This document shows, piece after piece, positions 17,206 to 25,519 of a stretch of DNA of 34,616 nt; positions within the stretch are counted from its first letter, which is position 1; each line of letters starts with the position of its first letter. Both the position numbers and the translations under genes were made by a program. The DNA is taken from NCBI GenBank assembly GCA_015522195.1, contig WAMS01000099.1, positions 1 to 34,616 of the forward strand, in the 5' to 3' direction. The notes under the pieces are model-generated. The model saw nothing but the letters and a program-made list of their open reading frames with translations, was not told the DNA's origin and did not search any database. The DNA is from Geoglobus sp. GTDB lineage: Archaea > Halobacteriota > Archaeoglobi > Archaeoglobales > Archaeoglobaceae.

Positions 17206-17585
17206 TGGTGGTAAGAATTGAATGCCTCAAGCATAATTGCTGTGAGTGCTGCATGGAAACAGAGATGCAGTTAAGCGATAAAGATGTGAAAAGACTTGAA
17301 AAGATCGGGTTTAAGCGGGATGAATTCAGCACTGTGATTGATGGAGTTAGAGTTCTGAGAAATGTTGATGGAAAGTGCTTCTTTCTCAAAAATGGGAAAT
17401 GCGGTGTTTACAGACAGAGGCCCCTGGGATGCAGACTGTATCCTGTTGTTTACGATGTTGATGAGGGGAAGGCAGTAATCCACAGTTTCTGCCCTTACAG
17501 ACATGAAATAAAAAAATCCACAGTAAAAAAGGTGGAAAGAATTCTGATCAGGCATATAGCTGAGGTTTTTGGGTATCTGCCATGA
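17202..17585 (+). CDS. YkgJ family cysteine cluster protein (putative Zn/Fe-binding)
   Basis: 'CLKHNCCECCMETEM', 'CFFLKNGKCGVYRQRPLGCRLYPVV', 'FCPY' cysteine pattern. Confidence 0.88.
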   Translation: MMVVRIECLKHNCCECCMETEMQLSDKDVKRLEKIGFKRDEFSTVIDGVRVLRNVDGKCFFLKNGKCGVYRQRPLGCRLYPVVYDVDEGKAVIHSFCPYRHEIKKSTVKKVERILIRHIAEVFGYLP

Positions 17586-19464
17586 ATCCGAGTCTCTTTC
17601 TTTTTTCAGATATCACCCTATCAAGCATCTCTGCTGCCTTTTTCATGTCTTCTTCCACAATTATCTTCCCTCCTGTGAGCTTCTCAACGTCTTCTGTGAA
17701 AAGCCTGACGGCCTCATCACTTCCTGTTATCGGTGGTGTTGGTGAGACATGGACTGTCAGACCATACGCAACTGCAAATACTGCATCTATGGTTGCCTTC
17801 TGCTCCATGTATTCCGGAGCAGTCACCACAACCGGCAGATCCGGAATATCCTGGCCCATGTAATCTGAAATCAACTTGAGCATGTATGCCGCCCTCCCAG
17901 TATCTGTGCATGTACCAAAGCTCAGAACAGGTGGTATGTTCAGCTCAATACAGAGATTTCTGAGATTCTTTCCAGCAAAGTCAAGAGATGACATGGATGT
18001 GATTCCTGCCTGTTGGAGTGCTGCATTTCCACATCCCATCGAAATGACAAGGATGTCTCTTTTTATCAACTCCTTTGCCATTTCGACAGTACATGAATCA
18101 TGGGAGCCATTTTTCAGTGTTGAACAGCTGACAAGAGCTGCAATTCCCTTCAGTCTCCCCTCTTTCAGGGCAGTCAACAGATTTTCCATGTTATTTCCGA
18201 AGGCTTTCATTATTGCTTCAGGTGAAAATCCAACCGTAATTTCCTTCCTGCTATCGATTCTGACAGGATTGATCCTTTTCCTCCTTTCAGTAAAATTCTC
18301 GATTGCCATATCTATAAGCTTCATCGCAATCTCCTCAACCTTTTCGGGGGAGTAATCAAGACCCTCATCTATACCTCTGAGCCTGACAAGTTTGCTCACA
18401 GGAACGATCTTCACACCGAATCTCTGGTATTCAGTGAGGCTCGGAACGGTGCAGTTCATATCAGCCGCAAAGACATCTATTCCTCCCATGGCAAGCACAT
18501 ACTCCTGTACAATCCAGTTTCCAACAATTCCAGCAAACACATGGCTCTCGGTTCTCTGCAAAACCTCCTGACCTGTTTCAATGAATCCAACTATTCTGAG
18601 CCCCTTAGCACCTGCTCTTCTTGCTCTTTCCTGAATCTCATCTCTCCCTGCAAGTTTCAGCAGAGCCATTGCAACAAACGGTTCGTGACCGTTTACGGCT
18701 ATGTTCACAAAATCAGGGTCCACAACTCCAAAATCTGCATAACCTTTGTGGGGAGATGGTGTGCCAAAAAGTATGTCGTGAATCATCTCCACTGCAATCT
18801 GAGACGCGAGACACGTGGCAATTCCACTCCTCATGCTTTTGAGAGCAAGACTCACATAATTTGTGTCAACATTGGTCATTGAAGAGGTGCCCATTGTAAG
18901 CAGCTCATGGAAAACACCGCACGGAATCAGATTCAGCTTTTCCCATACCTCCTTTCTCTTTTCCGGAGTGAACGCAAGTACAAGTCTGCTTGTCTCATGG
19001 GAGCTCAGATCTGAAACTATGAAATCAGCGATCTTCACGGCAAGCTCCTCAACTGTCTCACCATCCAAGCCCAGCTGCTCTGCAAACCATCTCAGTTTTT
19101 CTGGCTCTTTTATCTCAAAAGGGGTTTTCCCCTCAGCGGTAGCCCTGAGGGTTTTTGCCGCCTCAATCGCATGATACGTGTATGCCTCTGTACCCAGCAT
19201 ATTCAGGTGGACAAAGTTTCTGACAACCATTCCGGCTGCATCTATACCACATGCTCCATACTCCTTTCCATTTCCTATTCTGCACGGTCCCATGCTGCAG
19301 AGCTGGCAGCTAAGCCCCTGCATGCAGTAGAAGCACCTTCCCCTTTCCTGAGCTCTGAATCTGTCAGCGATGTTGGTAATTCCGAGCTTGCTGACAGAGC
19401 TGTACATTCTCTCCACAGATTCGTGATGGCTTACAGACCCTTTCCTTTTCATGATTTGGAGCAA
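17548..19464 (-). CDS. cooS: Anaerobic carbon monoxide dehydrogenase catalytic subunit CooS (divergent)
   Basis: 638 aa. B-cluster region 'SCQLCSMGPCRI...GACGIDAAGMVVRNF'; 'NGHEPFV'; 'DMNCTVPSLTEYQ'; 'SCSTLKNGSHD'; 'SMGCGNAALQQAG'; 'SFGTCTDTGRAA'. Confidence 0.92.
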   Translation of the reverse strand: MLQIMKRKGSVSHHESVERMYSSVSKLGITNIADRFRAQERGRCFYCMQGLSCQLCSMGPCRIGNGKEYGACGIDAAGMVVRNFVHLNMLGTEAYTYHAIEAAKTLRATAEGKTPFEIKEPEKLRWFAEQLGLDGETVEELAVKIADFIVSDLSSHETSRLVLAFTPEKRKEVWEKLNLIPCGVFHELLTMGTSSMTNVDTNYVSLALKSMRSGIATCLASQIAVEMIHDILFGTPSPHKGYADFGVVDPDFVNIAVNGHEPFVAMALLKLAGRDEIQERARRAGAKGLRIVGFIETGQEVLQRTESHVFAGIVGNWIVQEYVLAMGGIDVFAADMNCTVPSLTEYQRFGVKIVPVSKLVRLRGIDEGLDYSPEKVEEIAMKLIDMAIENFTERRKRINPVRIDSRKEITVGFSPEAIMKAFGNNMENLLTALKEGRLKGIAALVSCSTLKNGSHDSCTVEMAKELIKRDILVISMGCGNAALQQAGITSMSSLDFAGKNLRNLCIELNIPPVLSFGTCTDTGRAAYMLKLISDYMGQDIPDLPVVVTAPEYMEQKATIDAVFAVAYGLTVHVSPTPPITGSDEAVRLFTEDVEKLTGGKIIVEEDMKKAAEMLDRVISEKRKRLGFMADTQKPQLYA

Positions 19465-20700: not shown

Positions 20701-21117
20701 ATGGAGAGGAAAATCAGGGTTCTTGTTGCCAAACCCGGGCTTGATGGTCATGATAGAGGTGCCAAGGTTATTGCGAGAGCTTTGAGAGATGCCGGGTTTG
20801 AGGTTATATACACCGGAATCAGAAGAACTGCTGCTGAAATTGCAGAGACCGCATTGCAGGAGGATGTGGATGTTCTTGGGCTGAGTATTTTGAGCGGAGC
20901 GCATCTCGAGCTAATTCCCCTTGTTATTGATGAGTTAAAGGCGAGAGGTCTTGAACCGGGTAAAGACCTGCTTGTTATTGCTGGAGGTATAATTCCCTCT
21001 GAAGATGTTCCGGAACTTAAAAAAATTGGTGTTGCAGAGGTTTTTGTTCCCGGAACTCCCATGTATGAGATTGTTGAATTTATAAGAAATAACGCCGGAA
21101 AGAAGGTGATAGCATGA
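20701..21117 (+). CDS. mcmA2: Methylmalonyl-CoA mutase small subunit (cobalamin-binding domain)
   Basis: '[64 protein letters not shown]' is the B12-binding DxHxxG motif. Confidence 0.95.
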
Positions 21118-21509
21118 TAAAAAAGATAGATCATATCGGTGTTGCGGTAAAGGATCTTGAATCTGCCATGGAACTCTATAAAAAACTTGGTTTTGAGATT
21201 GAGGGGATTGAGGAAGTTAGAGAACAGAAGGTAAAGGTTGCGATGCTTCCTGTAGGTGAGAGCAAGATAGAGCTTATTGAAGCCACATCTGACGACAGTG
21301 TCATCGCCAGATTTGTTGAGAAAAAAGGAGAGGGCATTCACCACATAGCAGTTAATGTTGACGACATTGAAAAGGCACTGGACAGTGCAAAGGCTCAGGG
21401 ACTCCAGCTTATTGATGAAAAACCCAGGATTGGAGTTGGTGGCAAAAAGATAGCATTTGTTCATCCAAAAAGCACAAAGGGCGTGCTTCTTGAATTTGTG
21501 GAGGGATGA
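21114..21509 (+). CDS. mce: Methylmalonyl-CoA epimerase
   Basis: '[27 protein letters not shown]...[18 protein letters not shown]...GVLLEFVEG', a VOC-fold MCE signature. Confidence 0.95.
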
Positions 21510-23062
21510 AATTGAAGAAAGAACTTGTTGAAGACCTTTATCAGAGAAGGGAAAGAGTAAAACAGATGGGGGGAGAGGAAAAGATCAGAAAACAGCATGA
21601 TGCAGGAAAACTTACTGCAAGAGAAAGAATCGAGCTTCTCTTGGATCCCGGAAGCTTTGTGGAGATAAATCCTTTTGTTGAGAAAAGAAATACCGATTTT
21701 GGTCTTGACAGGGTTGATCTCCCAGCAGATGGCGTTATCACGGGATACGGAACCATAGATGGCAGGCCTGTTGCGGTCTTTGCACAGGATTTCACGGTGA
21801 TGGGAGGTAGTCTTGGAGAGATGCATGGATTCAAGATAGCCAGCATCCTTGACTTTGCAATGAAGGTCGGAATCCCGGTGATCGGGCTGAACGATTCAGG
21901 AGGTGCAAGAATTCAGGAGGGAGTTGATGCCCTGAAGGGATATGGAGATATATTTTACAGAAACACTCTTGCCAGTGGTGTTATCCCCCAGATAAGTGTT
22001 ATCCTTGGCCCATGTGCGGGAGGAGCTGTATACAGTCCTGCAATTGGGGATTTCATTGTGATGACAAAGAATGCCGGATGCTATATGTTCATCACAGGAC
22101 CAAATGTAATAAAAACGGTCACAGGAGAGGATGTTACACCACAGGAACTTGGTGGATGGGAGGCACATGCCGTAAAAAGCGGAAATGCCCATCTCGTTGC
22201 AGAAGATGATGAGGAGGCAATGCAGATCGTCAGAAAGCTTGTGAGCTACCTTCCTCTTAACAACCTGGAAGATCCTCCTGCTGTTGAGACTGACGACAAT
22301 CCTGGAAGAACGACTCCAGAAATCTATGAAATCATCCCCGACGATCCAAACAAACCCTACGATGTGAGAGATGTGATAAGAGCAGTGGCTGACAGTGGAG
22401 AGTTCTTCGAAATCCATGCAAACTATGCCCAGAATGCTGTGGTGGGATTTGCAAGAATGGATGGTAGGAGTGTTGGAATTGTTGCAAACAATCCGAAATT
22501 TTTTGCTGGAACCCTTGATGTGAACAGCAGCGACAAAATTGCCAGATTTGTCAGGTTCTGCGATGCTTTCAACATACCTGTAATAACATTCGTCGATGTT
22601 CCGGGTTATTTACCAGGAGTTCAGCAGGAGTATGGTGGGATAATAAGGCATGGTGCAAAGGTCCTCTATGCATACAGTGAAGCAACGGTACCTCTTGTAA
22701 CGGTAATACTGAGAAAGGCATACGGCGGAGCTTACCTTGCAATGGGAAGCAAACACCTTGGTGCAGATGTTGTTTATGCCTACCCTACAGCAGAAATAGC
22801 AGTCATGGGTCCGGAAGGTGCTGCAGAGATTGTATTCAGGAAAGAAATCGCAAAGGCTGAAGATCCCTCCACAGTCAGAGAGGAGAAGATTCAGGAGTAC
22901 AGGGATAAATTTGCCAACCCGTACAGAGCTGCCTCAAGAGGCTACATCGATGATGTTATAGATCCAAAATTCACAAGGGTGAAGATCATATCAGCTCTCA
23001 GAATACTCGATACAAAGAGAGAGAAGCTTCCACCCAAAAAACATGGAAACATACCTCTGTGA
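21506..23062 (+). CDS. Propionyl-CoA carboxylase / methylmalonyl-CoA decarboxylase carboxyltransferase subunit
   Basis: 518-aa carboxyltransferase: '[51 protein letters not shown]', '[59 protein letters not shown]'. Confidence 0.95.
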
Positions 23063-23071
23063 GGTGATCAG

Positions 23072-23203
23072 ATGAGTCCGGATGAGTTTTTAGCTGCCAT
23101 AACAGCCATACACAGATACATGGAAGATCATTCAGAGAAACCAATCGAGATAAAGCCAAGAAGCAAGGTATGGAAGATTTTTGCAAGAGTTCCCGGGTGG
23201 TAG
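23072..23203 (+). CDS. Small 43-aa protein, probable accessory (delta/epsilon/PccX-like) subunit of the acyl-CoA carboxylase/decarboxylase
   Basis: Not in the ORF track (under 60 aa). ATG 23072 to TAG 23201: MSPDEFLAAITAIHRYMEDHSEKPIEIKPRSKVWKIFARVPGW*. Preceded by GAGGTGATC (RBS-like), abutting and co-oriented between the carboxyltransferase and biotin-carrier genes. Confidence 0.75.
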   Translation: MSPDEFLAAITAIHRYMEDHSEKPIEIKPRSKVWKIFARVPGW

Positions 23204-23204
23204 A

Positions 23205-23861
23205 ATGCCGGTCTATGACGTGATCGTGAAGGACAGAACATTCAGGGTCGAGGTTGAGGAGATCTCACAGAACAGGTTCAGGGTAATAATCAACGGCAGA
23301 GAAGAAATAATAGAGATGTCTGAAAAAGTCATAGAGATCAAAAAAGAGAAAAAGGATGATTCTGCCCCGGCAGTGGTAGAGGGTGGTGAGATAAGGGCTG
23401 AAATGTCCGGAACTGTTGTGAAAGTTCTTGTCAGGAAGGGAGATCGGATTGAAAAAGGGCAGGCCCTGCTTGTTCTTGAGGCTATGAAAATGGAAAATGA
23501 GATTGCAAGTCACATAAGCGGGATCGTTGTTGATATTCCTGTTGCCGATGGTGATAAGGTTCAGGCAGGAGATGTATTGGCTGTGATATCCCCGGATCAG
23601 TCAGAATCCAGTTCCGGATCTCAAAGCAGGTCATCATCCTCTCAGGATGGCAGTGTTGTCAAATCTGAGATGGCCGGCACGGTTGTCAGGGTTCTGAAAA
23701 AAGAGGGTGAAAATGTCAGGTCAGGTGAAGCCGTGCTGGTACTTGAGGCTATGAAAATGGAAAATGAGGTTTCAAGCCCCGCTGATGGAGTTATTACAAG
23801 GATATTTGTTGACGAGGGCAGCAGGGTTCAGATTGGAGATCCGCTCTTTTCACTTTCATGA
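23205..23861 (+). CDS. Biotin carboxyl carrier protein with two tandem biotinyl domains
   Basis: '[17 protein letters not shown]' and '[17 protein letters not shown]' each carry a biotinylation motif, separated by the Ser-rich linker '[22 protein letters not shown]'. ATG 23205 ([10 protein letters not shown]) follows the 43-aa ORF stop directly. Confidence 0.93.
23475..23768 (+). repeat. Intragenic direct repeat: 27-nt identical copies (23475-23501 and 23742-23768) coding LEAMKMENE
   Basis: CTTGAGGCTATGAAAATGGAAAATGAG occurs twice, 267 bp (89 codons) apart and in frame. Confidence 0.95.
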
Positions 23862-25519
23862 GGGGTGAGAATGTGGGAAAGAGAGAATGGGAAGAAAGAT
23901 ACGTGAAACCACTGCTTGAAAAAGCTCCGGAGCGGAAAAAGGAGTTCAGAACATCAAGTGGATTTGTGATAGACAGGGTTTACACCCCTGAAGATGTGAA
24001 TCCCGACTATGAAGGCATGCTAGGATACCCAGGTGTGTATCCCTTCACCCGTGGTGTTTATCCGACAATGTATCGCGGCAGATTGTGGACAATGAGGCAG
24101 TACGCTGGATTCGGTACTGCTGAGGAAACAAACGCAAGATATCGATACCTGCTCGAGCAGGGACAGACAGGTCTGAGTGTTGCCTTTGATCTCCCCACCC
24201 AGATAGGGTATGACAGCGATCATCCAATGGCTCTTGGAGAGGTTGGAAAGGTTGGTGTGGCCATCGACACCCTTGAAGATATGGAGATTCTGTTTTCAGG
24301 CATTCCCCTCGATAGGGTTTCCACATCCATGACAATCAACTCCACCGCAGCTCAGATTCTGAGCATGTACATTGTTGTTGCAGAAAGCCAGGGTGCTGAC
24401 AGAAAAATACTCAGAGGAACTGTTCAGAACGACATGCTCAAAGAGTACATAGCAAGGGGAACATACATATTTCCTCCAGAACCGAGTCTGAGGCTTGCAA
24501 CTGACATAATAATGTTCTGTGCGAATGAGGTACCAAAGTGGAACTCAATAAGCATCTCTGGCTATCACATGGAAGAGGCTGGAGCAACCCCGGTACAGGA
24601 AGTCGCCTTCACCCTCGCAGATGGTATTGAGTATGTGCAGAGAGTAATTGACAGAGGGATGGATGTTGATGCATTTGCCCCAAGACTCAGCTTTTTCTTT
24701 TCAGCAGGAAACAATCTCATTGAGGAGGTGGCAAAATTCAGGGCTGCAAGAAGGCTCTGGGCAAGGATAATGAAGGAGAGATTCAATGCCAGAAATCCAA
24801 GGTCCCAGATGCTCAGATTTCACGTTCAGACAGCTGGTTGCACACTAACTGCCCAGCAGCCAGAAAACAACATAATACGAGTGACCCTGCAGGCTCTCGC
24901 AGCAGTTCTTGGTGGAGCTCAGAGCCTGCATACAAACAGCTTTGATGAAGCATTAAGCCTCCCGACCGAGAAAGCTGTCAGGATAGCGCTTAGAACACAG
25001 CAGATAATAGCTGAAGAAAGTGGAGTTGCAGACGTGGCAGATCCAATGGGAGGTGCGTACTACCTTGAATGGCTCACAGAAAAAATTGAGGAGGAGGCCA
25101 TGAAATACATTGACAGGATTGATGAAATGGGTGGTGTGATAAGGGCAATTGAAAGTGGATACATTCAGAGGGAGATCCAGAAATCTGCCTATGAAAAGCA
25201 AAAGGCAATTGATGAAGGTGAACTTGTGGTTGTCGGGGTGAACAAATACAGAATGGATGAAGATATAAAGGCTGAGATACTAAGAATCGATCAGGAAATT
25301 GTCAGAAAACAGGTGGAGAGAACAAAGAGATTCAGGGAGAACAGGGATAGCAGGAAGGTGGAGGAGGCAGTTGAAAAACTCAAAAAAGCTGCTGAAGATC
25401 CTGAAAAAAATCTCATGCCTCACATTCTTGATGCTGTTAAGGCGAGAGCAACACTTGGCGAGATGACAGATGCGCTCAGAGAGGTATTCGGGGAGTACAG
25501 GGCTCCTCAGATATTCTGA
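23858..25519 (+). CDS. mcmA1: Methylmalonyl-CoA mutase large subunit
   Basis: '[77 protein letters not shown]', '[17 protein letters not shown]', '[16 protein letters not shown]'. Confidence 0.97.

Follow-up and report, generated by a model that had tools for sequence, protein, structure and literature searches.

Two genes in the window, i.e. the whole stretch of 34,616 nucleotides of Geoglobus sp. DNA that was analysed, raise a question by the way in which they are arranged: the gene for a carboxyltransferase (CT) and the gene for a biotin carrier (BCCP) leave a gap between them, and this gap holds an open reading frame for only 43 amino acids. Is this ORF a gene, and if so, what could such a small protein do between two subunits of a biotin-dependent enzyme? 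An earlier note on this DNA had proposed a tiny structural or assembly subunit with the CT as its partner.

A short gene behind the carboxyltransferase

The ORF is part of an operon with the order B12-binding subunit of methylmalonyl-CoA mutase, epimerase, CT, 43-aa ORF, BCCP and large mutase subunit (Table 1). The CT reaches 972 bits with TIGR01117, slightly below the cut-off of 999, and its closest solved structure is 1vrg. The ORF itself lies where the earlier note had placed it, with the ATG start and the translation quoted there and with a good upstream signal, and its stop codon (TAG, 23201-23203) does leave a single base before the ATG of the carrier. Motifs resembling the ribosome-binding site of the window (GAGGTG/GGTGGT) are present upstream of most orthologues.

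Table 1. Features of the operon and of the 43-aa protein in the window
Feature	Position	Strand	Evidence or remark
Methylmalonyl-CoA mutase, C-terminal/B12-binding subunit	20701..21117	+	TIGR00640, 4e-56
Methylmalonyl-CoA epimerase	21114..21509	+	TIGR03081, 2e-50
Carboxyltransferase (CT) subunit, 518 aa, MmdA/PccB type	21506..23062	+	PF01039, 2e-210
Ribosome-binding site of the 43-aa ORF, GAGGTGATC	23061..23069	+	overlaps CT stop TGA 23060-23062
43-aa ORF, probable free-standing helix + hook subunit	23072..23203	+	ATG start; translation, conservation, dN/dS
Ala-rich amphipathic helix, residues 3-20 (PDEFLAAITAIHRYMEDH)	23078..23131	+	conservation, predicted helix; E5, F6, A12 invariant
Hook: linker and invariant W34-K35-xxx-R39	23132..23200	+	conservation; W34 codon 23171-23173
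Biotin carrier (BCCP), 218 aa, two tandem biotinyl domains	23205..23861	+	
Four-stranded N-terminal sheet of BCCP, residues ~1-39, proposed helix acceptor	23205..23321	+	conservation, orthologue model, stand-alone sheet ORFs
Methylmalonyl-CoA mutase, large subunit	23858..25519	+	TIGR00641, 7e-271

The 43-aa ORF is a genuine conserved protein-coding gene that has been overlooked by gene finders. A search with the single sequence matched 28 relatives at E < 0.01 (a 29th match, L029, is spurious and corresponds to an ArgS-like frame), and a profile search found the ORF in 42 of the 55 genomes of the family (E <= 6e-16). When the profile was run over 394 genomes of the phylum, the ORF was not found outside its family; the next best match had an E-value of 0.0016, and the matches with E > 1e-3 are spurious. 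The orthologous gaps preserve the frame, and selection on it is purifying; these are the two properties on which the earlier note had made its proposal depend. Compared to the nearest sister genomes, the differences at codon positions 1/2/3 amount to 6/1/21 and 3/3/19, and dN/dS is 0.03-0.26 in 12 of 15 pairs from the same genus, with dS saturated in the other three. That the ORF gives no separate protein, being a read-through extension of the CT, a leader for translational coupling or a chance frame, is hardly to be credited, since in many genomes it is indeed in frame with the CT across the stop at a spacing of 9 nt, but in others it is out of that frame (spacings of e.g. 5, 8, 11, 20, 22 and -4 nt) and has its own start codon, and its amino acids are conserved while the third positions are close to saturation; with both arrangements at spacings from -4 to 22 nt (loci whose CT was included), the ORF is not a read-through tail.

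The relatives have the ORF in the corresponding place between the CT and BCCP genes: in 38 loci it stands behind the CT and is followed, as far as the contigs reach, by an ORF that opens with the N-terminal strands of BCCP. Among 24 sampled genomes of the family, the small ORF is present in 17 of the 20 that have the CT and in none of the four that lack it (p 0.003). As to the three exceptions, one has a contig that stops within the CT gene; in the other two, the CT is located among other genes and has no carrier behind it. The loci L230 and L231, from two genomes of the family, have a CT with neither carrier nor small ORF behind it; by sequence reading, a ketoacyl/HMG-CoA-synthase-like gene lies upstream of this CT.

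The carrier of the window contains two EAMKM sites; among the operon carriers, tandem biotinyl domains occur only in loci of the window's genus, and genome G030 also has a two-domain carrier, away from its small-ORF locus. The two domains are the only biotinyl domains detected in the window genome (G000, a 1.65-Mb assembly that is 92% complete), and the carrier may thus also serve the PYC_OADA-type CT. Elsewhere in the window (17548-19464, minus strand), a 638-aa ORF reads by eye like the catalytic subunit of carbon monoxide dehydrogenase.

Helix and hook as a recurring module

Six residues of the 43-aa family are invariant, i.e. E5, F6, A12, W34, K35 and R39, and they fall into an N-terminal helix and a C-terminal hook. 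The helical moment of residues 3-20 is 0.43, as compared to 0.22 for shuffled sequences (p 0.023). The protein has no membrane helix (the highest Kyte-Doolittle mean over 19 residues is -0.07), as the earlier note had claimed. The "Trp-rich tail" that it had expected comes down to one invariant tryptophan, W34, because the second (W43, in PGW) is limited to the window's genus. Nothing significant was obtained from Pfam, NCBIfam or PDB sequences, whether the query was the ORF itself, the profile built on it or the combined profile.

The module is not confined to the free protein. The window genome encodes one biotin carboxylase (BC), which ends in ...DEIVFVAVSAVMACIDSRETEGLVETRTSQSWKVYSRLKNMGWL, and this lone BC (L182 4972-6543, G000:C125) bears helix and hook as its C-terminal tail; the OadG proteins of relatives end in ...SEKEIIAIISAIQHFKAFYETGVREVKTSENWRKYARIEQVR. 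In hhalign comparisons, whose E-values assume a database with a single entry and for which the tails had first been chosen by eye, the free ORF matched the BC tails at 1.2e-6 and the OadG tails at 1.3e-8, and BC and OadG tails matched each other at 2.6e-9. Less biased is a genome-wide run of the BC-tail model on 12 genomes, which matched, apart from BC itself, the tail of OadG (6e-5 and 2.8e-4, in two genomes that have no BC) and the free small ORF (9.1e-4 and 9.5e-4, in two others). The matches of a combined model over 295 genomes are almost confined to the free ORF, the BC tail and the OadG tail within the family; the assignment to OadG or BC is in part based on frame length alone. As judged from these profile comparisons, the free ORF, the BC tail and the OadG tail carry homologous helix + hook modules, and two or three of these forms are found per genome. 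The full W..R motif is present in 11 of 14 BC tails from genomes with the free ORF and in one of five from genomes without it (p 0.04, tails classed by eye). One genome without detected BC has an OadG-carrier-OadB operon (L136 1492-3329) in which the OadG tail is the helix-hook module. A match of the BC-tail profile to human KCNQ1 (WKIYIR, E 0.003) covers a stretch of 20 residues and was discarded as chance.

A probable role in holding carrier and carboxyltransferase together

The 43-aa protein probably serves the methylmalonyl-CoA/propionyl-CoA CT-BCCP complex as a soluble assembly subunit, namely as the free helix + hook of a split BT-like domain, and its most likely task is to tether the biotin carrier to the CT by the predicted binding. 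The Ala-rich helix would pack on the four-stranded N-terminal sheet of BCCP, and helix and sheet together would represent a split form of the BT/PT-like domain (helix, hook, beta-barrel) of PCC, MCC and two-subunit pyruvate carboxylase. The W34-K35-xxx-R39 hook would anchor this assembly on the CT, and in this way the carrier could be kept at the CT with no covalent link to BC.

The folding of the helix with the BCCP N-terminus is suggested by structure prediction. For a fusion of the ORF with the first ~50 residues of BCCP, AlphaFold gave helix 3-21 a pLDDT of 83-86 and the four strands 81-86 (pTM 0.57); the modelled sequence is that of a sister genome's orthologue (L147, 70% identical) with its natural in-frame TGA read through, an arrangement that imposes proximity, and a lone helix can reach a high pLDDT as well. 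A Foldseek search of the model against 350,542 PDB chains returned biotin-dependent carboxylases in the first nine places (eight by a conservative count): three chains of two-subunit pyruvate carboxylase (5ks8), four of MCC (9tqc), and the ACC entries 5csl and 8xl0. None of the E-values is significant by itself (best 0.08, none of these below 0.07), and the MCC matches span 85-86 columns of the 95-residue model. No match to BT domains was obtained at the level of PDB sequences, the sequences of these domains being too divergent. In the two-subunit pyruvate carboxylase of M. flagellatus, four-stranded sheets of the CT-BCCP linkers enclose the Ala-rich C-terminal helix of BC, and the holoenzyme is not formed upon deletion of this helix or with A465R (PMC5059739). 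Moreover, the archaeal genes, helix-hook followed by sheet-BCCP, are arranged like the domains in the alpha chains of such carboxylases (helix, hook, barrel, BCCP).

A different reading is that of a clamp of the MmdE/OadG type, with helix and Trp binding the CT directly and no helix-sheet domain with BCCP. The module is homologous to the OadG tail, the small ORF lies immediately behind the CT in every locus, and selenomonads have MmdE-like ORFs in the equivalent place. Joined to a single CT chain through the in-frame TGA, however, the ORF gave a helix pLDDT of ~50 and no confident docking, as against 83-86 with the BCCP N-terminus, and sheet-only ORFs have been retained beside the helix gene; we therefore consider the direct clamp unlikely. 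The hook is mostly disordered in both models (pLDDT <50) and was placed against neither partner. In GCC and MCC, the Trp of the BT hook is buried in the CT, between its N and C domains (PMC4673880), and the tail of OadG is required to retain the alpha subunit and has been proposed to form, by its helix, a PT-like unit with it (PMC7274780). The partner named in the earlier note thus has to be qualified: the evidence points first to the N-terminal sheet of BCCP, and a contact of the W-hook with the CT is likely by analogy with GCC and MCC. We infer this hook-CT contact, the stoichiometry, and a single socket for the free helix-hook, the BC tail and the OadG tail. The more general proposal of a structural or assembly subunit is supported by a conserved gene, the lack of a TM helix and the module shared with the cytoplasmic tail of OadG.

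The retention of the sheet-only ORFs comes from a divergent CT clade (g8, G030, g12), in which the helix gene is followed by an ORF for the sheet alone (38-45 aa), with no biotinyl domain. Divergent CT, helix-hook ORF and sheet-only ORF are found together in L235 (5435-7535), L154, L156, L157, L164, L167-L169, L172 and L180. The one CT of this clade that was compared, that of L235, is 47% identical and has lost conserved and catalytic stretches (e.g. GGARIQEG is changed; GSCHGMFCYAEA), and these genomes retain a single carrier gene at another site. As the helix and sheet ORFs are paired with no biotinyl domain, they have stayed together after the locus lost its biotin function. By sequence reading, genes like those for 2-oxoacid:ferredoxin oxidoreductase are next after the sheet ORF in L235; a locus of this type is possibly a biotin carboxylase-derived complex that has been repurposed without biotin.

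Which reaction the complex catalyzes can be approached from the gene sets of the genomes. Neither OadB nor OadG was detected in the window genome. OadB is absent from the complete genomes G006 and G016, which both have the small ORF, and is found in some relatives; in two g3 genomes, it occurs without BC. In G016, the presence of CT, ORF, carrier and BC and the lack of a PYC_OADA domain, OadB and OadG argue for a propionyl-CoA carboxylase. As the small ORF occurs in genomes with differing sets of BC and OadB, the subunit belongs to the CT-BCCP core rather than to one direction of the reaction.

A further idea, which we consider rather unlikely, is that one socket on a common CT-BCCP core accepts the free helix-hook, the BC tail or the OadG tail as exchangeable plugs; if it were true, the seated plug would decide between ATP-dependent carboxylation, decarboxylation with Na+ pumping, and carboxyl transfer between substrates. 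Less probable again than the direct clamp is a regulator that sits in the socket of the BC tail (or OadG tail), with the CT-BCCP core acting as a transcarboxylase or standing by for BC or OadB/OadG to take the place of the regulator. That the module exists as a free protein and as a part of both BC and OadG, with two or three forms in a genome, would suit such a regulator, as would the free module in the complete genome G016 next to BC, CT and BCCP; the tails, however, differ enough in sequence to fit different partners, and we regard the regulator, which is in any case compatible with an assembly role, as quite improbable.

Relation to known small subunits

With the probable assembly subunit, the central pathway for propionate and odd-chain substrates of this archaeal family gains a missing component, which would be left out if the enzyme were reconstituted from the annotated genes alone. 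The assembly of archaeal two-subunit carboxylases had been left open, since their tails differ (PMC5059739), and the helix-hook and sheet pieces are testable parts for this question. Moreover, MmdE-like clamps, OadG tails, archaeal BC tails and the BT domain may be tied into one short module that the libraries searched do not recognise.

Comparable small ORFs exist in bacteria. On 80 bacterial and archaeal CT loci, the archaeal profile has eight of its 20 best matches immediately after the CT (p 2.6e-11, 11,822 ORFs), as compared to a mean of 0.2 and a maximum of four for column-shuffled control profiles; this ranking is suggestive of a kinship with the bacterial small subunits but is no proof of it, because Ala-rich helices are alike in composition. 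With comparable ORFs ranked above chance in bacterial CT loci, the archaeal subunit is not a new category. Desulfobacterales loci (L039, L043, L048, L052, L063 and L094) have ORFs of 69-75 aa after the CT, with an Ala-rich helix, a W..(S/T)GR motif and a tail rich in Met, Gln and Arg; the one tested (L063) had no match in Pfam or NCBIfam.

The actinobacterial ACC epsilon subunit (AccE/PccE, PF13822) is likewise encoded by a small gene directly behind the CT, as in the 38 archaeal loci, and in S. coelicolor this gene follows at 9-17 bp (PMC13118682). None of 26 members of the archaeal family matched PF13822 at E <= 10. Like the 43-aa protein, MmdE and MmdD of the Na+-pumping methylmalonyl-CoA decarboxylase (NF047904, NF047902) are tiny subunits whose genes adjoin those of MmdA and the biotin carrier, and the MmdE-like ORFs of selenomonads (L058, L069) have a helix and then a W...R motif; the window protein did not match NF047904 (cut-off 65 bits), and of 26 relatives a single one gave a match, at E 0.15 and below this cut-off. 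In contrast to the MmdE system, the window genome lacks OadB/OadG and gives no evidence of a Na+ pump. A small third subunit of an archaeal propionyl-CoA carboxylase is PccX of Haloferax mediterranei.

With the tail of OadG/MmdD (PF04277), the 43-aa protein shares the helix + WKxxxR module, homologous by the hhalign comparison given above (database of one), although it did not match PF04277 itself; unlike OadG and MmdD, it is separate, soluble and devoid of a transmembrane helix. The BT and BT-like domains of PCC, MCC, GCC and two-subunit pyruvate carboxylase present helix, buried-Trp hook and beta-sheet in the same order (PMC5059739, PMC4673880), whereas in the window the proposed counterpart would be split over two small genes, and a second helix-hook is carried by BC.
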